Positions 3 through 17,317 of a stretch of DNA of 23,847 bases are shown here, piece by piece. The stretch's first letter is position 1, and every line of letters starts with the position of its first letter. The position numbers and the translations under genes are program-made. The notes below the pieces were generated by a model, which did no database searches, had not been told where the DNA came from, and saw nothing but the letters and a program-made list of their open reading frames with translations. Source of the stretch: a virus; the IMG/VR virus record IMGVR_UViG_3300026097_000104, positions 1-23,847 of that record; one strand, given 5' to 3'.

Positions 3-1667
3 TTAGAAGAATTCCGTCGTCCGGTACCAGAAGGTGACGAATACCAAAATAGACTTGCTGAAGAGTTTGAAATTATTATTCAGCAACGTTTCACAGACTA
101 CTTTCTCAAAATACGCAAAATACTGGACCTGAACACAGATATACCGCACATGACTCGTGGAAGTGCAGGTAGCAGTCTGGTGTGTTATCTCATGGGCATC
201 ACAGATGTGGATCCCGTTGAATGGAAAATACCCTTGGCACGTTTTCTCAATCCTAACAGAGACGACTTGCCTGATGTAGACATTGATGTGCCTCATCACA
301 AACAAGAGCTAGCCATGCAGAGAATATTTGACACATGGCCGCAAGCAAGTGCACGCATATCAAACTATGTGATGTACAAAGAAAAAAGTGCACGCAGAGA
401 AGCAGCCCGTAGACTGGGTGCCAAAGGCAGACTGCCCAAAGACATTGACTATGCCAAATTGGGGGTAGATGTCACAGAAGCAGAACGCATTGAGAAAAAA
501 CTTATGGGCAAGAAACGCTGTATTTCAAAACATTGTGGCGGTGTGGTAGTGTTTGACCGACAGTTGCCCAAGAGCTTGTTCCGTGAAGATAATCTTATTT
601 TGCTAGATAAAAACGAAATTGAAGATCTAGAACACTTAAAAGTGGACATCTTGGCCAACAGAGGACTTAGTCAATTGATGGAAATTGATCCTAGTATAAT
701 GCTACACGAATATCCACAAGAAGATGATGCTACCGCTGACTTGCTCAGTAGAGGTGATGTACTGGGAGTGACACAAGGCGAAAGCCCTGCTATGCGCCGA
801 CTATTCCGTGCTATACAGCCTACTAGTGTAGAAGACTGTGTGTTTGCCACAGCTCTGGTACGTCCTGTTGCTATGGAAGGACGTCGCAAGGCTTCGTGGT
901 TCCGTGACTGGACAGAAAAAAGCACTGTGGAAGGTGCTATTGTATACGAAGATGACGCTATCAACAAAATCATGCGACTGATTGGTATCAACGCCTACGA
1001 AGCAGACATGTATCGTAGAGCATTTGCCAAGAAGAACGAAGAAAAAATGATGGAGTTTATGGCCCGTTTAGGAGATCATCCTGACAAGCACGATATCTAT
1101 GATCAAATGCTGTGTTTAAGTGGCTTCGGTTTGTGTAGAGCACATGCTGTTAATTTAGGAAGACTGATATGGGCACTGGCTTACCAAAAAGCGCACAATC
1201 CAAAACAGTTTTGGCGTGCTTGCTTGATGCACTGTCAAGGCAGCTATGCACGTTGGGTATATCGCAATGAAGCAAAACGTGCCGGTTGGGACCTGCGTGA
1301 ACTAGGGTTTGGCAATTGGATTACAGAAGATCCTGTACAGAGCTATCTGGAAAACGAAGCATGGAATAGCCCGGGATTTTTACCCGGTATGGGTATACAA
1401 AAATTATACTTGGATCGATTTCAGTTTGCTGGCATAGTTGCCAATAGCAGAGTGTTCAAAAGTGACAGCAAAAACTACATACACTTTATCACACTGGGTG
1501 TAGGAGAAGGCAAGTATGTAGATCTAATTGTGGATTGTCCAGTAAAGTACGGCAAAGGAACAGTAATACAGGGCGAAGGCGAATTGCACAGTCGAGACAA
1601 CAGCGAATATCTCAAAGTAAAACGCAAGTCAGTTCGTGTGCAGTCAATTATTGATTTTATTCAATAA
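3..1667 (+). CDS. dnaE: DNA polymerase III alpha subunit (DnaE-type), C-terminal part
   Basis: Template-dependent DNA polymerase of the bacterial C family, here phage-encoded. The frame is open from base 3 with no start, so the N-terminal PHP domain and part of the palm lie outside the window; 554 residues remain. Visible DnaE landmarks in order: RGSAGSS (nt 159 on), the palm acidic motif PDVDIDV (about nt 270-290), HCGGVVV, the second palm motif KVDILANRGL with the third catalytic Asp (about nt 645), GDVLGVTQGES, a region equivalent to the DnaE R-P-G-P block (LVRPVAMEG), FGLCRAHAVNLGRLIWALAYQ matching the DnaE F-x-KSHAxAYA block, and a C-terminal segment that looks like HhH plus OB fold (about nt 1370-1660). 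All three palm acidic residues are kept, so it is probably active. RGSAGSS and the short C-terminus recall DnaE2/ImuC-type subunits as well as DnaE1. The T4-like neighbours suggest it replaces a family-B gp43 polymerase; no gp43 is in this window. Confidence 0.9.
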   Translation, partial: LEEFRRPVPEGDEYQNRLAEEFEIIIQQRFTDYFLKIRKILDLNTDIPHMTRGSAGSSLVCYLMGITDVDPVEWKIPLARFLNPNRDDLPDVDIDVPHHKQELAMQRIFDTWPQASARISNYVMYKEKSARREAARRLGAKGRLPKDIDYAKLGVDVTEAERIEKKLMGKKRCISKHCGGVVVFDRQLPKSLFREDNLILLDKNEIEDLEHLKVDILANRGLSQLMEIDPSIMLHEYPQEDDATADLLSRGDVLGVTQGESPAMRRLFRAIQPTSVEDCVFATALVRPVAMEGRRKASWFRDWTEKSTVEGAIVYEDDAINKIMRLIGINAYEADMYRRAFAKKNEEKMMEFMARLGDHPDKHDIYDQMLCLSGFGLCRAHAVNLGRLIWALAYQKAHNPKQFWRACLMHCQGSYARWVYRNEAKRAGWDLRELGFGNWITEDPVQSYLENEAWNSPGFLPGMGIQKLYLDRFQFAGIVANSRVFKSDSKNYIHFITLGVGEGKYVDLIVDCPVKYGKGTVIQGEGELHSRDNSEYLKVKRKSVRVQSIIDFIQ

Positions 1668-1805: not shown

Positions 1806-2837
1806 ATGGAAACATTTTGTGTATTGCCTTGGCACAGTTTAGAAGTTTACCCGGATCTAACTACTCCATGCTGTTTGATGCGCAAAAATTATAATTTAGA
1901 TCAAGTAAAAAAAGATTTATTAGCAGGTAAAAAAACATCAGCCTGTGACGCATGTTGGAAATTAGAAGGCAAAGGAATTGAAAGCCGACGACAAATTGAG
2001 AATAAATTTTTAGATTTTAAATTAGACCGAGATCTCATTGATATAGTTAACGAGTGTAGATCCAATGAAATAATTCCTACCATGTATCAAATTGCAACTA
2101 GTAATCTATGCAATCAAGCATGTGTTAGCTGTAACAGTCAATATAGTACTAAATGGGCTACTTTAGAAAAAAAACTAAACTTGATTCCAGTTAAACAATG
2201 GTCCACCGATATTAACCAATTGAACATAAATTATAAAGTTGCTAAAAGAATTAATTTGGTCGGCGGCGAGCCGTTATTTGATCCTAAGAGTTTTAAAATT
2301 TTACAAAATTTACTTGATTCCAGAAATACTGATTGTTTTATATCGTTTATTACCAATGGCAGTATAGAAATAGATCAGAAATATCTAAAACTTTTAGAAA
2401 AATTTTCAGACGTAAGTTTTTGTCTCAGCATCGACGGAATAGAAAAGAATTTTGAGTACATGAGATGGCCAGGAAAGTGGAATCAACTGTTGAAAAATCT
2501 TGAAATTTTTAAAAAGCTTACTGATAATATCAGTGTAAGTTATACCATCAGCTCACTTAACGCAGCATACTACAATGACACTGTAAATTGGTTTAAAGAA
2601 CAAAACTTACCATATAATCATAATATAGTACATGATCCTAATTGGTTAAGTTTATCTCATAGTCCTGAAGAATTAAGAGAAATTTCAACTTGCCCAGTGG
2701 GATTAGCTAGCTACTGCGAAGTTGATTTTGCAAATAACTTAAATGTAGTTAGAGAAAAAGTTCAGCAACAGGATCAAATAAAAAAAATTAATATTCGAGA
2801 CTACATGCCAGAAGTAGCTAATATACTTTTCGAATAA
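1806..2837 (+). CDS. Radical SAM protein 1 with N-terminal twitch/SPASM-like cysteines
   Basis: Predicted radical SAM enzyme (343 aa) that would bind a 4Fe-4S cluster and cleave S-adenosylmethionine; substrate unknown. The core motif CxxxCxxC is C102-C106-C109 (CNQACVSC), followed by the SAM-binding GGEP motif near residue 150. Before the core sits an auxiliary-cluster set: C5 in a CxxPW context, C22-C23, then C47 and C50, ending in an E-S-R-R element. This order is the reverse of ordinary SPASM proteins, where the auxiliary domain is C-terminal; it fits the N-terminal-twitch radical SAM family. It follows the polymerase gene after 138 bp and converges on radical SAM gene 2, overlapping its 3' end by 37 nt. 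Its composition is very AT-rich compared with the polymerase gene. Class assignment is strong; the reaction cannot be named. Confidence 0.88.
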   Translation: METFCVLPWHSLEVYPDLTTPCCLMRKNYNLDQVKKDLLAGKKTSACDACWKLEGKGIESRRQIENKFLDFKLDRDLIDIVNECRSNEIIPTMYQIATSNLCNQACVSCNSQYSTKWATLEKKLNLIPVKQWSTDINQLNINYKVAKRINLVGGEPLFDPKSFKILQNLLDSRNTDCFISFITNGSIEIDQKYLKLLEKFSDVSFCLSIDGIEKNFEYMRWPGKWNQLLKNLEIFKKLTDNISVSYTISSLNAAYYNDTVNWFKEQNLPYNHNIVHDPNWLSLSHSPEELREISTCPVGLASYCEVDFANNLNVVREKVQQQDQIKKINIRDYMPEVANILFE

Positions 2838-3931
2838 CCAAGCAAATCTGCACTTTTGGGACTGATGTCCGAAAAATCTAGTCCTCGTCGATGATCCATA
2901 ATTTGTAACTTTAGTAATGTATCGCCAAGATGAGAAGACTTAGACGATAAAGATTCTAATTGTTGTATCCAGGGTTGGCAATAATTAGTCATTGACAATA
3001 GGTGTGTTTTCATTGATTCAGACATATATTCCAATCCAAACTCTCCAAATGCTTGATGCGGTAGTATTTCTATTGGGTCTCCAAATACACTGTTACTAAA
3101 ATTTTTTTGGTACCACTCAAACAATTCGTTAAGATCTAATACATTTAAAATACTAACTGTAGCAGTAATACTCAACATACTATTATGCGGTAAATTGTTT
3201 TTCCACCATAACAAGTTAGATTCAACTTGCTCCCATTTAGCCGGATACCGTATATATTCAAATTTGCTTCCTATAGCATCAATACTAAAACTAATACGAG
3301 CAAACTTAAATTTTTCAATTATCTCTTTCACATCGTTGCTGATACGCACAGTACCATTGGTATTATACATAATTCTAACCTGTTTTGCTATTCCTAAATT
3401 ATATACATACTCAAGTAATCGAATGTGCGTTTTTGTTAAAAAAGGTTCTCCTCCCCACAGGCGTATCTCTTTCAACTCACTGAGATCAAGTAAATCTAAT
3501 TGCTCACTGATAAATTGGTCTAGGTTTGGGCGCACCTTAGATCCTTTAATCTTTAATTCTTTTCTCCAAGTGGTGCTTAGTTCAGGTCCACAAGTAATAC
3601 ATGCTAAATTGCAAGTCATGTCAATATTGATATCAAGATAATAAATTTTTGGCTCGTATGTAGGTTCACCGTGAAGAATCTGATAACCTTGACGCATGCT
3701 TTGTTTGCTAGCTTTTTCTTGTTCAATGCAAGTTTTGCAATAGTCGTAAGGTAATTGATTACTAGCATTTTGTTTTCGAAGTTGCTGAAAGTTTAAATGA
3801 TGAAAGTCGATAGCAGTTTCATTTTTTACGTCGGCGTTTGCCCAGCAACACACAGCATAACTTAGTGCAGAGTCAGAGATACTATTTAATGTGAGTCCGT
3901 GATAAATCCGTGGGCAATATTTTGTTGTCAT
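2801..3931 (-). CDS. Radical SAM protein 2 with N-terminal twitch/SPASM-like cysteines
   Basis: Predicted radical SAM enzyme of 376 aa. CxxxCxxC is C107-C111-C114 (CNLACITC), preceded by auxiliary cysteines C6, C28-C29 and C65/C68, and followed by WGGEPF, the SAM-binding GGE motif. The first auxiliary block is divergent: CPRIYHG replaces the CxxPW seen in paralogue 1. The SIDAIGSKFEYIRYP segment is shared with the other radical SAM proteins here (SIDGxxxxFEYxR), so they are paralogues. The ATG overlaps the TGA of the upstream helicase gene as ATGA, so it is translationally coupled to primase and helicase as the last gene of that operon. Its 3' end overlaps radical SAM gene 1 on the other strand by 37 nt. 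Substrate unknown. Confidence 0.88.
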   Translation of the reverse strand: MTTKYCPRIYHGLTLNSISDSALSYAVCCWANADVKNETAIDFHHLNFQQLRKQNASNQLPYDYCKTCIEQEKASKQSMRQGYQILHGEPTYEPKIYYLDINIDMTCNLACITCGPELSTTWRKELKIKGSKVRPNLDQFISEQLDLLDLSELKEIRLWGGEPFLTKTHIRLLEYVYNLGIAKQVRIMYNTNGTVRISNDVKEIIEKFKFARISFSIDAIGSKFEYIRYPAKWEQVESNLLWWKNNLPHNSMLSITATVSILNVLDLNELFEWYQKNFSNSVFGDPIEILPHQAFGEFGLEYMSESMKTHLLSMTNYCQPWIQQLESLSSKSSHLGDTLLKLQIMDHRRGLDFSDISPKSADLLGYSKSILATSGM

Positions 3932-5337
3932 TGTTTGCTTTTTAATTCAGCAAGCATCTGTTTAAGCTTGGTACTTTCCACATCAGCTGTGATCTTACCA
4001 GGTTCGTCTTCCACACTGGCGTCTGCATCCTGCGATGCACCCATTGTACTCTTGGTTTTAATACTCTCGTAGATACTGGGTGCACGTTTCTTAAATTCTT
4101 GATAGTCTGGATCATCACCTAAGTCTCTGATTCTCAAACTCTCCATATCAAACTCAAGGTCCACTTTGTTGCCCACACCCGAACTTGAACGTGTTTTCAT
4201 TGCCTGAATTTGATATCTGCCACGTTCTTTCATGGCGCGACTTGTAAAGATACCAAAAACGTTGTCTGCTGTGTTAATCTTACTTATGCCGCCTGCAATA
4301 TGACTATGGTCAAACTCAATTTCTTCTACAGCGGCCCTGTTCAACTGCGACGCTGTCACAAACAATATATTCATTTCCCGAGACAAATTGCGCAGCTCTT
4401 CTGAAACATACTTGTCTTTCACAAACTGATCATTGGGCGAAACTTTTGCACTCACAGGCATCAACAAGTCCAAGTAGTCCACGCACATAAAGTCAATGCT
4501 GCGTCCAGTTTTGATTTGCAACTCTTTACAAAATGCACGTATATCATTTACGTTGCTCTGTGCTGGCAAGTATTTGATCTGCAGGTTGCCTGATTTTTTC
4601 TTCATCATCTTGATCTTCATTTCCACTGTATCAAGATCTTTAAACAGTTGCTTGCTGGCTGTGTTAGTGAGCATGCTATCCACACGCATAGCAGTTAGCC
4701 CTTCGCTAAGTTCCAACGATATATACACGCCGTTGAGCCCTGCTTCCATCCAGTTACAAGCCAGGTTCTGCATGAACAAACTTTTACCTGATCCACTTCC
4801 GCCAGCAAAAATTTGCAGTTCGCCTCTGTTGAATCCTCCATATAACAGTCGATCCAGTGCTGGCCAGCCTGTGCTGTTCTGCCCGTTGTTGTCTTTGAGT
4901 GCGCTCAATCGAGCACGTGGATCTTCAAAATAATCTGTGCCAAGGTCTTTTGTGAGCGATATTTGTACTGCATCCTTGATCAGCTTTTCTACAGGATCAA
5001 ATGTGCCTTTTTCCAGCAAGTCGGCAGCCTTGAGGATAGCACGTTCCAGTTCCTGCCGCTTGGTAAATCCTTCAAACTCCTGCATGAACCAGTCAAAGTG
5101 CCCTTCGTTCAGCTCTGGAATCTCTTGCAGTTTTATGCCTGTAACTGCACGCACTTGCTCTCTGCCAGGCAAGGTCTTGTGTTCATTGGCATGAGCATAG
5201 ATAAACTCAGCAGTTTCTCTTAACCGCTTGTCAAAGTTTTCACTGTTAAAAATGTTCTGCACACGCAAAAAACTCTGCGCATCGTGCATCATGATTTCTA
5301 AAAACAGTTGTTGTACTTCAGGGCTATAGTCTTTCAT
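3928..5337 (-). CDS. Replicative DNA helicase, DnaB/gp41-type
   Basis: Hexameric 5'-3' replicative helicase (469 aa) that unwinds the fork and loads primase. Walker A is GGSGSGKS at residues 179-186, inside an RGELQIFAGG context typical of the RecA-fold DnaB core. The hydrophobic Walker B strand with D-Y-L-D follows near residue 285, and SQLNRAA is the DnaB-type sensor region. The first 120 or so residues form the helical N-terminal domain that contacts primase. A low-complexity charged tail ends the protein. Length matches T4 gp41 (about 475 aa). The start overlaps the primase stop as ATGA, and the radical SAM gene 2 start overlaps its own stop in the same way. Confidence 0.93.
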   Translation of the reverse strand: MKDYSPEVQQLFLEIMMHDAQSFLRVQNIFNSENFDKRLRETAEFIYAHANEHKTLPGREQVRAVTGIKLQEIPELNEGHFDWFMQEFEGFTKRQELERAILKAADLLEKGTFDPVEKLIKDAVQISLTKDLGTDYFEDPRARLSALKDNNGQNSTGWPALDRLLYGGFNRGELQIFAGGSGSGKSLFMQNLACNWMEAGLNGVYISLELSEGLTAMRVDSMLTNTASKQLFKDLDTVEMKIKMMKKKSGNLQIKYLPAQSNVNDIRAFCKELQIKTGRSIDFMCVDYLDLLMPVSAKVSPNDQFVKDKYVSEELRNLSREMNILFVTASQLNRAAVEEIEFDHSHIAGGISKINTADNVFGIFTSRAMKERGRYQIQAMKTRSSSGVGNKVDLEFDMESLRIRDLGDDPDYQEFKKRAPSIYESIKTKSTMGASQDADASVEDEPGKITADVESTKLKQMLAELKSKQ

Positions 5338-6305
5338 CTAATCTTCTTTTCAAGTTTTTTACGGGCCATTTTGATCTTGATATTGCCGCTTACACGGTTT
5401 TCGAATATGCTTACGAGTGTAGTTAGCTTGCCATACCGGCACACTGCATCATTCACGTCTTTGATATCCGCAGGCCAGTCTGGTACACTCACATTCCAAT
5501 GGTTTTCTTGAGCACTGTCTAGGAGTTTCAATCCTGCTTCGTCGTGATCTGGCACAACTATGATCTGCTTTTCCAAACTGCGTATCACTCTAGCTTGCTG
5601 TGCATTTACTTCGTTATGTAAAACAGCTAGTCCATCTATACAAAGTGCATCAAATACTCCTTCTACAAGTATAGCATACTGCCAGTGTTCTTGTTGCAAA
5701 TCGGAGCCGAATACATACCCGGGTTGTGCGTCTTGTATAAACTTTGGCTTGCGACCATCAATGTACCGTGTGGTGTGTCCTACCACGGTATTATTATAGG
5801 TGAACGGTACAACCAACCCGTGTCTTGTTACATGCTCGTGATCTTGAAACATGTAAGGATAGTTTTCTGGCAAACAGCGGTCTTGTACATACTTGTACAA
5901 AGGCTTGTTGGGTGTAAGAAATTCTGCAAAATCTGGCAAGTCGCGTTCTTCAAACTCTATGTTCATTAGACGTTCAGTGAGTGCCTTGCGCTCTTGTGCT
6001 ATGCCTTCTATGCTGCGATGTCTTAGACTTTCGAGGTTAACACGCTCAATATCGTCTTGCGGCACACCCAGCCACTGTAGTAGACGGCGGGCTTTGAAAC
6101 TGAGTGTTCGGCCCATTAAAAAACTAGCAGTGTAGTTGCAGTTAAAACAGTGATAACTCCACGAATCTTCATGCACCTTAATTCCGCCACGCTGACGTTT
6201 ATCTGTACTTTCGCCATTGTGCGTGCAACAGGGTGCGTTGAACGAAATCCAGCCCGAACTGGTTTGCTTGCGCCTTGCAGGAAGATACTGTAGAATATCA
6301 AACAT
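5334..6305 (-). CDS. DNA primase, gp61/DnaG-type
   Basis: Makes RNA primers for lagging-strand synthesis with the helicase encoded next to it (323 aa). An N-terminal zinc-binding domain is visible: C26, C27 and H29 in PCCTHNG, then C53 and C56 in HCFNCNY. The TOPRIM catalytic domain follows, with EGVFDALCIDG (the catalytic Glu motif) and a D-H-D-E-A-G motif in VVPDHDEAGLKLL (the metal-binding Asp pair). T4 gp61 is 342 aa, so this is full length. The ATG overlaps the preceding SGNH gene stop as TAATG, and the helicase ATG overlaps its TGA, giving a coupled primase-helicase pair. Confidence 0.92.
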   Translation of the reverse strand: MFDILQYLPARRKQTSSGWISFNAPCCTHNGESTDKRQRGGIKVHEDSWSYHCFNCNYTASFLMGRTLSFKARRLLQWLGVPQDDIERVNLESLRHRSIEGIAQERKALTERLMNIEFEERDLPDFAEFLTPNKPLYKYVQDRCLPENYPYMFQDHEHVTRHGLVVPFTYNNTVVGHTTRYIDGRKPKFIQDAQPGYVFGSDLQQEHWQYAILVEGVFDALCIDGLAVLHNEVNAQQARVIRSLEKQIIVVPDHDEAGLKLLDSAQENHWNVSVPDWPADIKDVNDAVCRYGKLTTLVSIFENRVSGNIKIKMARKKLEKKIR

Positions 6306-8651: not shown

Positions 8652-8659
8652 TATTTATG
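8652..8659 (-). promoter_or_regulatory. Late-type promoter CATAAATA, - strand
   Basis: Matches NATAAATA, the late motif described for cyanophage S-PM2. Read on the minus strand it lies 24 nt before the structural gene ATG (8627), with GGAG in between. It overlaps the start codon of the divergent gene at 8657, so two late promoters cross each other here. Confidence 0.5.
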
Positions 8660-9034
8660 GGTCCTGAAGTATTTAAAAAATTAGCAGAACGTTATCCGTT
8701 TATAACATTTTGCACATATGCCGGAAACGAGTATGTGGGTGTGGTTCAGAATCAAGATAATCTTGTTACAACCATCTATGACTTTGGCGGCATACAGGAC
8801 AGTGATCTTAAAACACGATTTCTGGATCTTGCCAGTGTATGGTGGTGGGAAAGTAACCGTAGCATACCCATAAATATTTTTCTCAAAGGCGAATGGGACG
8901 AATTTCGGCCTTATCTTAAAACCTTCGTAAACAAAGATCTAGATATTATAGTAGGTCCAGCTACCAGTTTAGCCGAGTTATCGAGAAAGAAAACCAAGCG
9001 TCGCAGTATTACTCTTGTTCGCAAAGTAGATTAA
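8657..9034 (+). CDS. Conserved phage protein of unknown function (125 aa)
   Basis: I do not recognise a functional domain. The protein is 125 aa, with a WWWESNRSIPINIFLKG core and a basic tail (RKKTKRRSITLVRKVD) that could touch nucleic acid. I recall similar short proteins in marine T4-like phages, without a function. It is a lone plus-strand gene between two minus-strand operons, with an exact TATAAATA late promoter at 8602-8609, so late expression is likely. Its last 26 nt overlap the 3' end of the mini-DnaE gene on the opposite strand. No signal peptide or membrane segment is visible. Confidence 0.72.
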   Translation: MGPEVFKKLAERYPFITFCTYAGNEYVGVVQNQDNLVTTIYDFGGIQDSDLKTRFLDLASVWWWESNRSIPINIFLKGEWDEFRPYLKTFVNKDLDIIVGPATSLAELSRKKTKRRSITLVRKVD

Positions 9035-9572
9035 CGTGTAATGCTACTAATCTCGCATAGCTTATGCTATGTGACTTTTTGAAAACAAATCCTCTACTGT
9101 CATCACCGTCCCATACACTGGCAAACACAGCGTCCCAGGGTTGTCGCTGTAGATGTGCTTTACCGGGTCGGATGATAGCAATAAAGGCAGCCATTCGTTC
9201 AATACTATCAGGTTGCATTTCTTTTACTAAGTCTGCATAGTTGCCAATGTGTACCACACGTTCACAGAATGTGTTGTTAAGTAACAAATGCCAGTTTGTT
9301 TCTTTGGCTAGCATACAATCATAATGATCTTGATCACGAATTAAATCATATACACTTTGATTGAGAAAGTCAATTTTAAAATAACCTCGAGCTTCTGCAT
9401 CTCGATAATCAATACTGCTGCAATTGTTTAAAGGATCCACAGGAATATCAGTAACAAATACTCCACTATTGTGTTTGCGGATTTCATTGTTGTTTTCTTG
9501 CCGTGCCGGCGTATGTTTGATTAAATCAAGTATTGCGTTTCTATCTGCAAAATCTATGTCTACGTCGGCCAT
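9009..9572 (-). CDS. Miniature DnaE-like palm protein (187 aa)
   Basis: A very short relative of the DNA polymerase III alpha subunit. Motifs appear in DnaE order with almost everything between them removed: ADVDIDF at residues 2-8 (the PDxDxDF acidic motif), KHNSGVF at 33-39 (DnaE H-x-GGV), FKIDFL at 65-70 (DnaE KFDFLGL, third catalytic Asp), PDSIERMAAFIAIIRPG at 121-137 (DnaE F-E-D-x-x-A-x-x-A-L-x-R-P-G), and FKKSHSISYA at 164-173 (DnaE F-x-KSHAxAYA). All three acidic positions are present, but PHP, most of the fingers, HhH and OB domains are absent. ATG at 9570-9572 is chosen because it overlaps the upstream stop as TAATG; an in-frame GTG at 9578 is the alternative. Role unknown: a regulator, a decoy, or part of a composite polymerase. 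Similar short proteins seem to occur in other marine phages (memory only). Confidence 0.75.
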   Translation of the reverse strand: MADVDIDFADRNAILDLIKHTPARQENNNEIRKHNSGVFVTDIPVDPLNNCSSIDYRDAEARGYFKIDFLNQSVYDLIRDQDHYDCMLAKETNWHLLLNNTFCERVVHIGNYADLVKEMQPDSIERMAAFIAIIRPGKAHLQRQPWDAVFASVWDGDDSRGFVFKKSHSISYARLVALHVNLLCEQE

Positions 9573-10255
9573 TACCACCCTGCCTGTTTTAGTATTTCTT
9601 CAGCGTATGCCTTGTCTGCTGGATAGTCTCGAAACTTCTTCTGCCAAAAATCTGTTTCGATCCAAGGCCACACTATATGCATTTGATCTGTGTTCATGTT
9701 TGCTAAAAACTGTTGCCCTGAGTTGCAGTTGTAAACTACCCACGGACTTATTCTGCCAGTGCTGATTGCAAATGCTACACTATTAGGATTTCCGTAACGT
9801 AGAAAATCCTGGGGCGGTAATTGTTTCTCCTCGCCCCATTTAATACTGTACTCAATTGCACGTTGCAGTGCGTCTGTGAGTGCTTCGTGTTTAAGATACT
9901 GTAACAAGTACTCGTCGTACATGCTGTCTTTATACCAGTGATCCAGCTTTTTATTGTTTTTAAGCAACCACTCAGTGTAAGCTGGCACATTTATAGCATT
10001 GATCATCACACACTGTCTGCCAAATTTTACAAAAGCCGCATAATACGGACTCTTGGCAAAGTCTTCATAGGTTTTGTACTTGGCTGAACCTTGTGTGGTT
10101 TCATAAAAACGCAAATAGGCATTCAATCCAATCTGAACACCTTTTTCATTTTGTTGATTGTGTCTGCGTTTAGGCTCGCAAAGATGAGCTGTTAGAGTGC
10201 TTTCCCTTTTGAACTCTTTGCTACAAAACTTACACTTGTATGTTTCACTTGTCAT
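9572..10255 (-). CDS. Zinc-finger protein of a conserved phage family
   Basis: 227 aa. An N-terminal zinc finger is clear: C8-x2-C11, then H24, with C26 or H32 as fourth ligand (YKCKFCSKEF then LTAHLCEPKRRH), followed by a basic stretch. The remaining 190 residues are a helix-rich domain with many aromatic residues (LNAYLRFYET, YYAAFVKFGR, GRISPWVVYN, DYPADKAYAEEIL). I recall this architecture as a conserved unknown in marine T4-like phages. DNA binding is plausible from the finger but not shown. ATG at 10255 is preferred over an in-frame TTG at 10261. It overlaps the upstream gene by 11 nt and the downstream mini-DnaE start as TAATG, so the three are translated as a unit. Confidence 0.78.
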   Translation of the reverse strand: MTSETYKCKFCSKEFKRESTLTAHLCEPKRRHNQQNEKGVQIGLNAYLRFYETTQGSAKYKTYEDFAKSPYYAAFVKFGRQCVMINAINVPAYTEWLLKNNKKLDHWYKDSMYDEYLLQYLKHEALTDALQRAIEYSIKWGEEKQLPPQDFLRYGNPNSVAFAISTGRISPWVVYNCNSGQQFLANMNTDQMHIVWPWIETDFWQKKFRDYPADKAYAEEILKQAGW

Positions 10256-10688
10256 TTCCAAGATCTTTCATTAGCTCCCGAAGTTCTTTCTTGGTAATCA
10301 TCTTGCTCAGCATGTGAATTTCATCTGCTTTCATTGCAGGATAAAGATTCATCAGTGTTTTTTTAATCTCGTTATCGCCTTTTTCTTTTTTCTTAGGTGC
10401 GATCCATTGATGACGATGTGTGCCCATATTTGGGCTAACAGTGGTAGCTAACAGCCATTGCAGTTTTGGATGACGACTCAACTCGAAGAAATGTTTGTTC
10501 AGCCGTTCGTTAGTTGCAACTAGGTAGTATTCTTGCAGTTCTGTAGCACCTTGCACACTGCTACCCCAACGTATCATGAGATAATTTGAAAACTTTTTGC
10601 GTTCTTCTTCCGTTAAACTGTCGTAGAACTGTCTGTCTTTATTGTCAAAACAGCGCATTTCATTGGCAATGTTCAGCTTGTTGCTCAT
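10245..10688 (-). CDS. Possible clamp-loader small subunit (gp62-like)
   Basis: 147 aa helical protein without a catalytic motif. The pattern FSNYLMIRWGSS, then EYYLVATNERLNKHF, then a short helical tail rich in Lys with LYPAMKADEIHML and TKKELRELMKDL resembles the layout of T4 gp62, the small subunit of the clamp loader (F-M-V-N-R-x-L-S, then an N-E-M-N-like helix, then a helical tail). The call is by pattern and by position next to UvsW and other replication genes; no gp44 or gp45 is recognised beside it. The ATG overlaps the upstream stop as TAATG. The alternative is a conserved phage protein of unknown function. Confidence 0.38.
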   Translation of the reverse strand: MSNKLNIANEMRCFDNKDRQFYDSLTEEERKKFSNYLMIRWGSSVQGATELQEYYLVATNERLNKHFFELSRHPKLQWLLATTVSPNMGTHRHQWIAPKKKEKGDNEIKKTLMNLYPAMKADEIHMLSKMITKKELRELMKDLGNDK

Positions 10689-11188
10689 TAAAATGCCTTG
10701 TTGTAATCCACCAACTCACAGTTGCGACTGATGTCTTTTACAAAGTATACACACAGTGGTTTGTCACTGTCGTTAATAGGTACACACAGCATCTGCCCAT
10801 TCTTTAATTTAGGAGCATACCAACTTACATCTTGGTACACATCCACAATCTCAATGTCGTGATAGGTTGGACTAAAGCTGGAAAGTGGGTTGTATTCAAA
10901 TGCTTTGAAACCTCTGTCATTGATACTGGTCAGTGGCAACATCTCCAAATCGCCCACATCCTCCTCTCCAATCAAGATCTGCCAATCAATAGGCATTTTG
11001 ATCCTGTGCTCGCCAATGCGCAGGACCAGTGCCGGGCTGTTAAAACTTTCCAAGAATACCAATGGTATAAAATGATAATCAGGATCGCCTGGATCACTGT
11101 TATCAAATATGCCAAAGTTCATGTCATCAATTTCTTCAGGAAGTTGATCCAATTCAAATACAGTTGTTTCTAGTGTTAAAATTCTCAT
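10688..11188 (-). CDS. Conserved phage protein of unknown function (166 aa)
   Basis: Acidic, beta-rich protein, 166 aa. Distinct segments are IKMPIDWQILIGEEDVGDLE, PLTSINDRGFKAFEYNPLSS and DVSWYAPKLKNGQMLCVPI. I remember similar sequences from marine T4-like phages but know no function. Position between the UvsW-like helicase (9 nt gap) and the gp62-like gene (TAATG overlap) suggests a replication or transcription accessory role. No zinc site, nucleotide-binding motif or signal peptide is visible. Confidence 0.75.
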   Translation of the reverse strand: MRILTLETTVFELDQLPEEIDDMNFGIFDNSDPGDPDYHFIPLVFLESFNSPALVLRIGEHRIKMPIDWQILIGEEDVGDLEMLPLTSINDRGFKAFEYNPLSSFSPTYHDIEIVDVYQDVSWYAPKLKNGQMLCVPINDSDKPLCVYFVKDISRNCELVDYNKAF

Positions 11189-11197
11189 GCTTATATA

Positions 11198-12658
11198 CTA
11201 ACTGTTCCAGTTTAATTTTTCTACAGTAAATGGATAATTTGCTTCTTTATAATAGGCTTTTCTTTTGGTCAAATGACGTTTGGCAAACTTGCAAGTGCTA
11301 GTGATGTCCCAGATCTGTACGTGATCTTTGTCTTCTGCTTTGCGAATGCCGCGACCAATACTTTGAATTACCCTAACAAAACTTTTGCCAGGCTCAATAA
11401 GAACAAGATTGAATATCCGAGGAATATTAATCCCAACAGCCGCAACTCCGTAGGTTGCAATAATGATTTTGCCTTCCGCTTCTTGAACTTCGTCATAATG
11501 ATCTTGACGTTCACCGGCTTTGGTACTGCCTGAGATGAACACCGAATTTGGCAGTCGATCGGCTAGCTCTTTGCCAGCACTGATGCGATCCACTAGAATT
11601 AGCGTGTTGCCAGTTTTATTTACTTCCTCTCCTAGTCCAGCAATAGCGTCTAACCTTCCTGGCTCTTCCAGCAAGTATTTAAGCTCTGATTGATAATTTG
11701 TGTGTTCTACATGATCTACCAACTGCACAATGTTTACATGACACTGTGCTAACACGCCTTGACCTTGCAGTTCGCTGGCACTGAGCTTGCCAATCACAGG
11801 CCCCAAACTAACATGAATACTTTGAAACTCAAACTGTTCTTTGGGCACTGTGCCAGTAAGTCCCCAACGAATCGGAATGTGACTCATTACGCCCGTGAGT
11901 AAAGTTTTAAGTGCATCTGCTTTGGCCATGTGCACTTCGTCTACAATCACAGCAACCACGTCTTCAATAAACTCGCCGATGGTTATATCAGCTGTTTGGT
12001 TCTTTGTGTTTTTTAACAACACATTAAGACTCTGCCAAGTACAAATTGTGTGCTTGTGACCAAACTCTTTTCTGTCGCCGTAAAACACACCCACATCTAA
12101 TTGCATGTTACGATAATCTTTTTCTGTTTGTGTTACAAGACTTTTGTTTGGCACAATAACAATACTGCGCCCATAGTTTTCCACACGCTCGCTGAGTGCA
12201 GCTGTCATAATGGTCTTGCCTGCGCCTGTAGCAATCTCCTGTAAACACTGTGGATTTTGCAAAAAGTTATTCACAATCTCCACTTGATAGTCACGCAGTT
12301 TCACTGGTTGTCCAGCTGCTGGATGTTTGTCTGGCCATAGTATGTCTGCGTAACTTTCTTCGGTTACAGGATCAAAATCAAATGTGGTTCTATATTCTCG
12401 GAGATCTTGTAGTTCAATGTCATAGCGTTCTTGCTCTAGTACAGGCAGTATGTCTGGCAGTAAATTAACAAAACTGCTACCGCCTAGCTGAAAGTATGCT
12501 ACTTTGCCGTCCCAGCGTCCCAGACGAACTGCTGGCAAATAGCGTGCATAAGGCACTTCGTACTTGAACTTGTTAACCAGTTTTCGTCTGGTATCTAAAT
12601 CAAGTCCTTCTATTTTAAGATTGACTTCATCTTTCACAATTAATTTTGCTGTTTTCAT
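11198..12658 (-). CDS. uvsW: UvsW-like superfamily 2 DNA helicase
   Basis: 486 aa, same size class as T4 UvsW (about 500 aa), which remodels branched DNA, drives fork regression and removes R-loops late in infection. SF2 motifs in order: the Q-like KLRDYQVEIVNNFL, motif I ATGAGKT (about 142-148), motif Ia IVVPNKSLVTQTE, motif II DEVH in VIVDEVHMAKAD, motif III GLTGT, and motif VI QSIGRGIRK. The N-terminal 100 residues (YARYLPAVRLGRWDGKVAYF) match the DNA-binding N-domain found in UvsW-type proteins. It is 9 nt downstream of radical SAM gene 3 and has its own TTGACA-17-TAATAT promoter inside that gene. There is no Shine-Dalgarno before the ATG. Confidence 0.92.
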   Translation of the reverse strand: MKTAKLIVKDEVNLKIEGLDLDTRRKLVNKFKYEVPYARYLPAVRLGRWDGKVAYFQLGGSSFVNLLPDILPVLEQERYDIELQDLREYRTTFDFDPVTEESYADILWPDKHPAAGQPVKLRDYQVEIVNNFLQNPQCLQEIATGAGKTIMTAALSERVENYGRSIVIVPNKSLVTQTEKDYRNMQLDVGVFYGDRKEFGHKHTICTWQSLNVLLKNTKNQTADITIGEFIEDVVAVIVDEVHMAKADALKTLLTGVMSHIPIRWGLTGTVPKEQFEFQSIHVSLGPVIGKLSASELQGQGVLAQCHVNIVQLVDHVEHTNYQSELKYLLEEPGRLDAIAGLGEEVNKTGNTLILVDRISAGKELADRLPNSVFISGSTKAGERQDHYDEVQEAEGKIIIATYGVAAVGINIPRIFNLVLIEPGKSFVRVIQSIGRGIRKAEDKDHVQIWDITSTCKFAKRHLTKRKAYYKEANYPFTVEKLNWNS

Positions 12659-12664
12659 AAAACT

Positions 12665-12693
12665 ATATTAAACGTTATTTGAATATTTGTCAA
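12665..12693 (-). promoter_or_regulatory. Sigma70-type promoter for the UvsW-like gene
   Basis: On the minus strand TTGACA (12688-12693) is separated by exactly 17 nt from TAATAT (12665-12670). The -10 element ends 6 nt before the ATG at 12658, which places the expected start of transcription on the start codon. It lies in the last codons of radical SAM gene 3. Confidence 0.45.
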
Positions 12694-13819
12694 TTAAATT
12701 GGCAACCTCAGGAAATGTTTTCTCAAAATTCAACTGTCTATATTCATCGTGAGCCTTTGTTTTTTTAATAAATTCATCAAAATACAGAGTATCATCACTA
12801 TTTTCCAATAGATTTGCCCAGATTTGCACATCCTTAAATTTACTTGAGCGAAGGCTGGCAACAATTGATTCTTTAATACTGTCTGGGTATACACCTAGTC
12901 TAAAATGCGCTGGCGTATGCACTCGTCCTATCCACGGTCGTGGTAATTTTTTCTGTTCACACCAATTAAAAAATTCATCAAGATAGTTTACGTTGTACGC
13001 ACTTAGGGTATGACTAACACTTAATCGCAGATTATCTGTTTGATGTTCGGCTGCAAGATATCGATCTACATTCTGCTCACAAGCCTCCCAATTGCCAGGA
13101 AACCTGATATATTCATATCTACTTCCGACTCCGTCTATACTAAGTTGCATGTCTATCTCATTGAAATACTGCCACCTGTCCCACCAAGATTGGTCTGGAA
13201 ATTTACTAACATTTGTTGTATAATGAATTGAGATATTTTTAGCTTGCCCACTTTGAATATAAAAGTCTAATAATTCTTGTTGTTGTCCTACTCCACTTAA
13301 AAAAGGTTCTCCGCCAGGAATATCTAAATGAATTAAATTATCACATTGTGCTATAAAATCTTCAATGAATCCTTCTTTGTAAAAATGATTAGGTTTTTTT
13401 GCTTGCCCATAAATTAGCTTGTATTCTTGATACCATCTACTGCTACTTGAAGGACTGCAGGTAATACATTTGTAATTACAAGTATTTCCAAATGCAATAC
13501 TTGCCGTTAAATATTTTTTGCTTTTTAAATTGTAACTGTCATAATGATCTTGCCATCTGCTGTAGTCTAATTGTCTTTTGCTTTCTACCGCATTTTCTTC
13601 TTCAATTCGGCAACGATTGCACCCTGTGGGCCACTGATCATTTAAAAAATCTTCCTTAATTTCTTGCAAAAGGTCACAACTACTATAAGATTGTATATCA
13701 GTAGTTATTATATTTTGTTTTTTATAGGTATAACTTTTGTGATCAAACTTGCAACAAGGCATTAAATCACCTTGCGGGCTTATATCTATGTTAGTCCATG
13801 GTGCAAAACAAAAAGGCAT
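12668..13819 (-). CDS. Radical SAM protein 3 with N-terminal twitch/SPASM-like cysteines
   Basis: 383 aa. The auxiliary block is the clearest of the four: C4 in CFAPW, an ISPQGDLMPCC segment with C22-C23, then C67-x2-C70 and ESKRQ. The core is C114-C118-C121 (CNYKCITC), followed by the SAM-binding PGGEPF and SIDGVGSRYEYIR. The N-terminal block reads like the C-terminal SPASM motif of ordinary maturases (C-x-x-P-W, I-x-x-x-G-x-x-x-x-CC) moved to the front. The ATG has no Shine-Dalgarno; TATAAGTA ends 4 nt before it. The gene lies directly downstream of the terminator of the AAA+ gene, so it needs its own promoter. UvsW follows after 9 nt. Substrate unknown. Confidence 0.9.
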   Translation of the reverse strand: MPFCFAPWTNIDISPQGDLMPCCKFDHKSYTYKKQNIITTDIQSYSSCDLLQEIKEDFLNDQWPTGCNRCRIEEENAVESKRQLDYSRWQDHYDSYNLKSKKYLTASIAFGNTCNYKCITCSPSSSSRWYQEYKLIYGQAKKPNHFYKEGFIEDFIAQCDNLIHLDIPGGEPFLSGVGQQQELLDFYIQSGQAKNISIHYTTNVSKFPDQSWWDRWQYFNEIDMQLSIDGVGSRYEYIRFPGNWEACEQNVDRYLAAEHQTDNLRLSVSHTLSAYNVNYLDEFFNWCEQKKLPRPWIGRVHTPAHFRLGVYPDSIKESIVASLRSSKFKDVQIWANLLENSDDTLYFDEFIKKTKAHDEYRQLNFEKTFPEVANLIDKYSNNV

Positions 13820-15620: not shown

Positions 15621-17264
15621 TTAGTTTGCAGTAATTATTATATCGTTAAACATATCTTGTAATTTAGGAAAAACGTCATAAAAGTTTTCATTTCTATTAG
15701 CATCCAAAATTTCTATGTCTCTTTTAGTTTGAATAAGTTTATAACTTTTATCTGCACTGTGCATGTAATTGTTTATTTCTTGCCATTCATTTGCTAGACG
15801 TAAAATGTTTTTGTCCTTTAACCATGTCACATATTCATCGATAATAAATCCTAATCGTTTTTTATGTTTGTAAGGTAATGTTTGTACATCATAATTGCCA
15901 TTATGGCCTTCTATCATATTCATAGCAAAACTATTTGCATTTATTAGTCCAGTTGTGTGAAAGATTTTTTGTAATTCAATGATTGATTCTAGAGATATTG
16001 AACTAACAACCGATGTTAAACTTAATTTTACATGTGAACAATGATTTTTAATTTGGTTGATGTTATAATTTACCGTTGACCAATTTGCACCATGTCTTAG
16101 ATACTCAAAAGATTTGCCGTGACCGTCGATACTCAGTGAAACTGATACGTCATCAAACATGTTCCAATAATCTAAAATTGACTTTTTTTTATAATATAAA
16201 TTTGTAGCATTAGTGCTATAAGTTAGGGCAATATTTTTTTGTGCTCCATGCTGAATTATATACTCTAGTATATTATAATGGCCACGTTGCAATAACGGTT
16301 CGCCGCCATAAAATCCTATTTTTTTTGTTCTAAGAACATACGGTAACACAGCATCTACAATTTTATTTTTTTGTAATGGGGTTAATATTTTATTTTTATT
16401 GTGTGTTCTACCAAAAATATTGGCTTCTTCTATTGCAAGTAAACTAGACGACTCGCCCGAGCAGACTCTGCACTTAAGATTACAAGTGTTATCAAGTGAT
16501 AGTTCTAAAGACTCAAAATTAAGATCTTCTATACTCCCGTCGGGACAAGTGATTTTTTTTGCGTGTTCTTTTGTAAAAGAATACTTTTTATTCATAAGAA
16601 GACGTCTGCTTTCTTTACCATGTTTTTCGTAATTATAACAACTTTTGCATCCTGGAGATTTTCGATTCTCTAGCATATTTTTTCTTAAAGCGTTGGCTTC
16701 ACTGCTATGTAAAATATTAGCTAAACTATCAGTTTTCAGATTTCCTAAGCTCGAATCGGACTGGTAAATGCAACAGGGTAAAACGTGTGCATCTGGCTTG
16801 AGGAAAAATCCTTTCCACGCATCCACACAAAATGTTTCTTGTGTGTGAATATTTTTTTCGTATTGCCCCGGAATATGCATACAATTTATAAGTGTGCTAT
16901 CATTTGGCGAATACAACTTACTAACACTGTCTATTTCTTTTTCTATGCAAGAATTTGTAGACATTATTAACACAAAACAATTAGTAATGTCTAATTTTTC
17001 CAAGTAAGTTTGGATTAAGGTAAGATAATTGCCCGGTGTATCGCTCGACGTATCATATTCATATTCATCAAAAATATCCTGGACCAGGACAATACGATCA
17101 GTAGGACAAAATTTATCTTTACGAACACTATGTAAATAATCTACTAACGCATTTTCCCCATTGTGGGTTTTTATTTGTGAAAAATAAAAAATGTCTCCTA
17201 CAATGGTATACTCGGTCTTAATGTTATCAAAAGCCTGCGCAAGTTCTGTTTTATCAAAAATCAT
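15621..17264 (-). CDS. Radical SAM protein 4, with extra N-terminal domain (547 aa)
   Basis: The largest of the four. From the ATG at 17262-17264 (an in-frame TTG at 17282 is possible) it has about 140 residues of unrecognised alpha/beta sequence absent from the other three. An auxiliary block follows: C146 in ETFCVDAW, C164-C165 in VLPCCIYQSD, a GNLKTDSLANILHS element typical of SPASM domains, C206-x2-C209 and ESRRLL. The core is C261-C265-C268 (CNLKCRVC), then FYGGEPLLQ and SLSIDGHGKSFEYLR. The tail is about 150 residues. Very AT-rich compared with the genes around it. No Shine-Dalgarno; TATACATA ends 4 nt before the ATG. The extra domain might bind a different substrate or partner. Reaction unknown. 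Confidence 0.88.
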   Translation of the reverse strand: MIFDKTELAQAFDNIKTEYTIVGDIFYFSQIKTHNGENALVDYLHSVRKDKFCPTDRIVLVQDIFDEYEYDTSSDTPGNYLTLIQTYLEKLDITNCFVLIMSTNSCIEKEIDSVSKLYSPNDSTLINCMHIPGQYEKNIHTQETFCVDAWKGFFLKPDAHVLPCCIYQSDSSLGNLKTDSLANILHSSEANALRKNMLENRKSPGCKSCYNYEKHGKESRRLLMNKKYSFTKEHAKKITCPDGSIEDLNFESLELSLDNTCNLKCRVCSGESSSLLAIEEANIFGRTHNKNKILTPLQKNKIVDAVLPYVLRTKKIGFYGGEPLLQRGHYNILEYIIQHGAQKNIALTYSTNATNLYYKKKSILDYWNMFDDVSVSLSIDGHGKSFEYLRHGANWSTVNYNINQIKNHCSHVKLSLTSVVSSISLESIIELQKIFHTTGLINANSFAMNMIEGHNGNYDVQTLPYKHKKRLGFIIDEYVTWLKDKNILRLANEWQEINNYMHSADKSYKLIQTKRDIEILDANRNENFYDVFPKLQDMFNDIIITAN

Positions 17265-17268
17265 ATAG

Positions 17269-17276
17269 TATGTATA
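17269..17276 (-). promoter_or_regulatory. Late-type promoter octamer TATACATA before radical SAM gene 4
   Basis: One mismatch from TATAAATA, 4 nt before the preferred ATG, with no Shine-Dalgarno. The 50-nt gap is almost pure A/T, so a chance match cannot be excluded. Confidence 0.3.
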
Positions 17277-17317
17277 ATACAAAATTACTTTGATAAATTA
17301 TAAAGATTTAAAAAAAT

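Follow-up and report, generated by a model that had tools for sequence, protein, structure and literature searches.

A jumbo-phage mini-DnaE as the predicted C-terminal half of a clamp-loader-linked split Pol III alpha

Background

The closest described counterpart of the protein studied here is the split minimal Pol III alpha that Iyer et al. (2021; Viruses 13:63, PMC7824862) predicted for group 2.2 jumbo phages. In the portions of that paper available to us, the predicted enzyme consists of an NTP-binding N-terminal half and a Mg2+- and DNA-binding C-terminal half, encoded by distant genes in phages that carry a family-B polymerase (PolB) alongside. One of the two halves had already been annotated in individual genomes: CBB_328 (172 aa, PMC5259590) and Atu_ph07 gp316 (PMC6102473), correspond by size and annotation to the N-terminal partner. 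CBB_328 is described as a truncated alpha subunit, and the excerpts do not recognise the other half. According to the same excerpts, a gp44-type clamp-loader gene lies four gene numbers from the N-terminal partner in both phages (CBB_328/CBB_332 and gp316/gp312). In the open-licence literature we found no experimental work on the split pair.

Family-C polymerases are recognised by a small set of residues. Three aspartates, D401, D403 and D555, hold the catalytic magnesium and are invariant throughout the family, D405 is a mark of DnaE as opposed to PolC, and the palm has a fold in common with that of X-family polymerases (Timinskas et al., PMC3919608). E. coli H760 has been proposed as a steric gate against ribonucleotides (PMC8485763).

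Here we report on a viral DNA fragment of 23,847 nt (IMG/VR record IMGVR_UViG_3300026097_000104), the whole of which is called the window below. On the evidence of sequence and structure prediction, we identify its 187-residue mini-DnaE as the C-terminal half of the split Pol III alpha of Iyer et al. (2021), a family catalogued as PHROG 11778.

Mini-DnaE carries family-C palm motifs

The features of the window referred to in this report are the following.

3-1667, plus strand: compact C-family polymerase without PHP domain, about 565 aa when complete; about 11 N-terminal residues are lost at the window edge
3928-5337, minus strand: DnaB-like replicative helicase, conserved neighbour
5334-6305, minus strand: DNA primase, conserved neighbour, annotated in orthologues
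8657-9034, plus strand: convergent conserved ORF, PHROG 11637, overlapping the 3' end of mini-DnaE
9009-9572, minus strand: mini-DnaE, 187 aa, PHROG 11778; predicted to hold the palm beta-strands, Asp triad included, and reduced fingers; the putative C-terminal half of a split minimal Pol III alpha
9572-10261, minus strand: zinc-finger protein, PHROG 11058, with invariant C10, C13, H26 and C28; overlaps the start of mini-DnaE
10245-10688, minus strand: gp62-like small clamp-loader subunit, PHROG 11758
10688-11188, minus strand: conserved neighbour, PHROG 11279, of unassigned function
11198-12658, minus strand: UvsW-like helicase, conserved neighbour, assigned by position and annotated orthologues

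The mini-DnaE gene runs from an ATG at 9572-9570, directly before the ADVDIDF motif, to a stop codon ending at 9009, and its start, stop and length agree with the first-pass annotation of this DNA. An in-frame GTG is also present at 9578; the conserved start of the family is the one just before ADVDIDF. That annotation had named five DnaE motifs in the correct order, all of which we located and mapped onto E. coli DnaE: D3-V-D5-I-D7-F (PDFDVDF, 400-406), H34-N-S-G37-V (HAGGVV, 511-516), K66-I-D68-F-L (KFDFLGL, 553-559), I134-R135-P136-G (RPGPL, 639-643) and F164-K-K-S-H168-S-I-S-Y172 (FNKSHSAAYAL, 756-766). D3, D5 and D68 are the equivalents of the catalytic D401, D403 and D555; a D405-type Asp is kept as well, making the protein DnaE-like rather than PolC-like, and H168 retains the steric-gate residue, equivalent to H760. 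Over its full length the protein matches the PHROG 11778 profile ("DNA polymerase", 197 positions) at positions 7-194 with E=3.4e-58; in Pfam the Pol III finger domain alone was matched, below threshold (E=0.025). A chance motif match is ruled out by the PHROG 11778 score together with the residue invariance described below. By sequence and alignment, the Mg2+-binding Asp triad is there and the GRGS nucleotide-binding motif is not.

An AlphaFold2 model built from a 63-sequence alignment reached a pLDDT of 94.5 and a pTM of 0.82. In a second-look structural alignment all 15 entries above Z 6 were C-family polymerases (Z 6.1-9.8), with 181-186 of the 187 residues aligned, and the next chain scored only Z 3.0. 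Plain Foldseek placed the same C-family chains on top, with E-values of at least 1.4e-3. The proposal of a DnaE-type palm, against which an unrelated fold would have counted, thus survived the comparison, and the three Asp are predicted to meet at one site, as follows from the alignment of their strands to the DnaE palm.

The model spans residues 400-779 of E. coli DnaE and 461-836 of the Taq enzyme, that is, palm and fingers. Since 187 residues stand against 380 in the E. coli stretch, thumb and a large part of the fingers are deleted, and with the DxD strand as the first element of the model, the GRGS segment of the palm is absent. Mini-DnaE therefore shares with bacterial DnaE the catalytic palm strands, the Asp triad, the D405-type Asp, the RP motif and the FxKSH fingers helix, but has large internal deletions and lacks the PHP, thumb, HhH, OB and C-terminal domains and most of the fingers, while the GRGS half of the palm is found on another protein. 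The earlier description, which had listed the PHP, HhH and OB regions and most of the fingers as removed, was borne out in this respect but was incomplete, as the thumb and the GRGS part of the palm are gone too. We accordingly rejected the view of mini-DnaE as a complete miniature polymerase, because the GS motif and the palm helices preceding it are absent and were located on a second protein.

Conservation across jumbo phages

Relatives of mini-DnaE were recovered by tblastn from 79 phage records, 63 of them with at least 80% of the protein covered. Carriers comprise PA5oct-, RaK2-, 121Q/PBECO4-, GAP32-, CBB- and Munch-type phages, Atu_ph07, Phosso, SCTP-2, XacN1 and others. A first scan of viral contigs gave 65-86% identity in 80 contigs among the matches listed, and a profile scan returned at least 600 matches. 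In all, more than 60 records of jumbo phages contain the family, and viral contigs with it run to hundreds. Weak matches in Streptomyces phages (E about 0.3) were rejected as members, being pieces of larger DnaE-like proteins. Among genome contigs, only nine, all from MAGs, carried relatives (39-45% identity), and these are probably misbinned phage; the PHROG 11778 profile had no match in any of 14 control genomes. Recent capture from a host was rejected, as these scans gave no close cellular relative.

The residues expected at the active site hardly vary. D3, D5 and D7 are Asp in 142 of 143 distinct aligned relatives, the remaining row having a gap at this place, and all 143 keep D68, H34, G37, K66, R135, P136, F164, K165 and H168. 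Diverged relatives differ at synonymous sites far more than at non-synonymous ones (pS 0.41-0.82 vs pN 0.06-0.17). Mini-DnaE is under strong purifying selection, and the excess of synonymous change therefore identifies it as no decaying gene; with the residue invariance, this upholds the earlier argument against a pseudogene.

A second phage protein carries the GRGS motif

The GRGS motif sits on a separate phage protein of about 160-180 aa, PHROG 11127 ("DNA polymerase", 171 positions), here called the N-half. It was found in PA5oct, PBECO4, Atu_ph07, Phosso and a 328-kb contig, G001, whose mini-DnaE is 71% identical to the window protein. GRGS is invariant in the N-half, and each of the 25 sequences aligned ends in EFLR, EFLK or DFLK. 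PF07733 was matched by each of the 25 members, the first of which exceeds the Pfam cut-off. The N-half model (pLDDT 82.7) retrieved C-family polymerases only in the second-look alignment, covering E. coli DnaE 272-393 with Z 7.9-12.0.

The end of the N-half aligns to E. coli DnaE residue 392-393, and mini-DnaE picks up at the position of residue 400. Because the two proteins map to adjacent stretches of DnaE, their models tile palm and fingers without overlap. When HHalign compared the alignments with one DnaE sequence at a time, that of E. coli or the compact form, partial matches only were obtained, at the expected places. Despite the common fold of C- and X-family palms, the sequence and fold matches of both halves go to the C-family only, and not to family X or other Pol-beta-like nucleotidyltransferases. 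A search for a natural fusion of the two halves gave no match, using a single narrow DNA pattern that does not exclude fusions.

The two halves travel together. Of the phage records listed for mini-DnaE, 59/60 also contain the N-half, the exception being PP728206, a partial record of 109 kb. Fifteen further records comprise 12 with both halves, two incomplete contigs of 136 and 105 kb with the N-half alone, and LR756508, in which neither half is a separate gene. The window is a fragment of 23.8 kb within which both the N-half and a family-B polymerase are absent; by analogy with relatives such as G001, the phage it comes from probably encodes an N-half.

Additional polymerases in the same genomes

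The first-pass annotation had placed a full-size DnaE on the same genome. This turned out to be a compact chain without a PHP domain: the ORF at 3-1667 is open to the left edge of the window and encodes 554 aa, and its complete relatives are 566-585 aa long and start shortly before the palm. A single chain here holds the palm motifs TRGSAGSS, PDVDID and KVDIL, and this protein is a polymerase in its own right rather than a partner for mini-DnaE. Its relatives lie about 5 kb from mini-DnaE on the opposite strand in 18 mini-DnaE loci, and its best match in the isolate collection is a 484-kb uncultured phage (36% identity). In the available portions of Iyer et al. (PMC7824862), split-form phages are said to lack every other Pol III domain, whereas the lineage of the window has this compact C-family polymerase.

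A family-B polymerase is present in all 15 further records and in G001. In three related contigs (G001, G008 and G009), PolB occurs together with both the split pair and the compact DnaE. In LR756508.1 (484 kb), PolB occurs with the compact single-chain DnaE and no separate split pair, a hint that the compact enzyme may stand in for the pair.

Conserved neighbourhood and clamp-loader genes

Across 198 loci the gene order is strongly conserved: UvsW, PHROG 11279, gp62-like, zinc finger, mini-DnaE, convergent PHROG 11637, primase and DnaB. Among 160 loci with enough flank, the zinc-finger gene lies upstream of mini-DnaE in 157 and the gp62-like gene in 154, and the convergent ORF is kept in 165 of 169. 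The operon context noted at first reading is thus confirmed, the proteins encoded directly upstream being a zinc-finger protein of CCHC type and one that is gp62-like. The zinc-finger protein has a strict C-x2-C...H-x-C pattern, its gene often overlaps the start of mini-DnaE, and it is a possible third subunit. PHROG 11758 is assigned as gp62-like because its member in Slickus01 also matches the clamp-loader PHROG 225 (E=3e-4) and comes right after gp44.

The N-half gene has clamp-loader company of its own. Of 48 N-half loci, 36 have the gp44 clamp-loader ATPase gene 1.4-3.1 kb downstream in the same orientation (e.g., L123, L131 and L145), where distances are mid-point values and the 48 loci include some duplicates or short flanks. 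The published gene numbers of CBB and Atu_ph07 accord with this. Most genomes have the genes for the two halves at a long distance from each other; Slickus01 has those for the N-half, gp44, the gp62-like protein and mini-DnaE on one strand within a span of about 12 kb. As both halves lie near clamp-loader genes, a shared replication role is supported. This linkage was not found in the portions of Iyer et al. (PMC7824862) available.

Other genes nearby deserve mention. A DnaQ-like (epsilon) exonuclease is annotated a few kb from mini-DnaE in PBECO4 and XacN1 (L085 3805-4623 and L263 8865-9458) and is a possible proofreading partner. The window also encodes four radical-SAM/SPASM-type proteins (1806-2837, plus strand; 2801-3931, 12668-13819 and 15621-17282, minus strand), and another that looks similar by eye lies near the N-half in locus L123.

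Proposed role of the pair

Based on these sequence and model data, we suggest that the split pair is a putative clamp-loader-associated heterodimeric DNA polymerase, a reading to which we give a probability of about 0.75. Mini-DnaE would give the palm beta-strands with three metal-binding Asp and the reduced fingers, together with the residues predicted to surround the incoming nucleotide (R135, K165 and, as the steric-gate residue, H168). The PHROG 11127 protein would give the palm helices and GRGS, which binds the triphosphate in DnaE. Most likely the two halves depend on each other and form a heterodimer with a single active site, which we infer to be catalytically active and to prefer dNTPs. 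Beside the family-B replicase, such a heterodimer would most likely perform clamp-assisted DNA synthesis, for example short-patch, lagging-strand or repair synthesis; we propose this because both genes lie near gp44- or gp62-like genes and mini-DnaE also near those for helicase, primase and UvsW. Several points count against the heterodimer. Its two genes mostly lie at a distance from each other, and the N-half is absent from the window. With thumb, HhH and OB missing, the DNA binding of the pair must be weak or supplied by other proteins. The phages that bear the pair also have PolB, which leaves the need for the pair unexplained.

Three roles had been proposed for mini-DnaE at first reading: a regulator, a competitor or a minimal nucleotidyltransferase. 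The catalytic one comes closest, the metal- and nucleotide-binding residues being invariant, but activity of the protein standing alone is unlikely, as the GS motif and the palm helices are on a second protein.

The pair could instead be a catalytically silent scaffold in the clamp loader or replisome, or a tuner of PolB or of the compact DnaE. The clamp-loader neighbourhood, the loss of thumb and DNA-binding domains and the fact that these phages already own PolB would all be consistent with silence, but metal-binding, GRGS, RP and steric-gate residues are all retained across families at about 40% identity, where some loss would be expected, and we regard this explanation as unlikely. We give somewhat less credence to an active pair that is not a templated DNA polymerase, such as a terminal transferase or a modifier of protein, RNA or DNA ends. 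The Pol-beta-like superfamily holds many nucleotidyltransferases of a non-polymerase kind, and the template-binding and thumb regions of the pair are very reduced; against this, the surroundings of the incoming nucleotide are those of DnaE, steric-gate His included, and the gene context is one of replication.

That mini-DnaE acts by itself as a competitor or decoy for the host Pol III, the clamp or the other polymerase of the phage is suggested by its resemblance to a DnaE fragment. It is nonetheless highly improbable, given the conserved active-site chemistry and the co-inherited complementary half; moreover, phages of very different hosts carry mini-DnaE, and divergence would be expected of a host-directed decoy. 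A decaying fragment or annotation artefact, for which the small size relative to full DnaE might speak, is already refuted by conservation: many relatives share the same length and ends, strong purifying selection and synteny.

Returning to the heterodimeric polymerase, we tentatively propose that some jumbo phages may have a three-polymerase replisome composed of the family-B enzyme, a compact C-family enzyme and the clamp-loader-tied two-protein C-family enzyme, perhaps with the zinc-finger protein as a third subunit and with labour split between the strands or between replication and repair.

Conclusions

The family and its split have been published before; the link to the clamp loader and the genomes with three polymerases are new here. 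For one large marine group of jumbo phages, PF07733 has been reported as the marker Pfam domain (PMC9123017), and, as N-half members match PF07733, we think that this marker may be the N-half. If active, the pair would be, to our knowledge, the smallest C-family polymerase, with a catalytic centre divided over two genes in phages that have a family-B replicase too. An active pair would also explain genes labelled "hypothetical", "putative membrane protein" or "truncated Pol III alpha" in more than 60 sequenced jumbo phages, and would show the minimum needs of the bacterial replicase fold.
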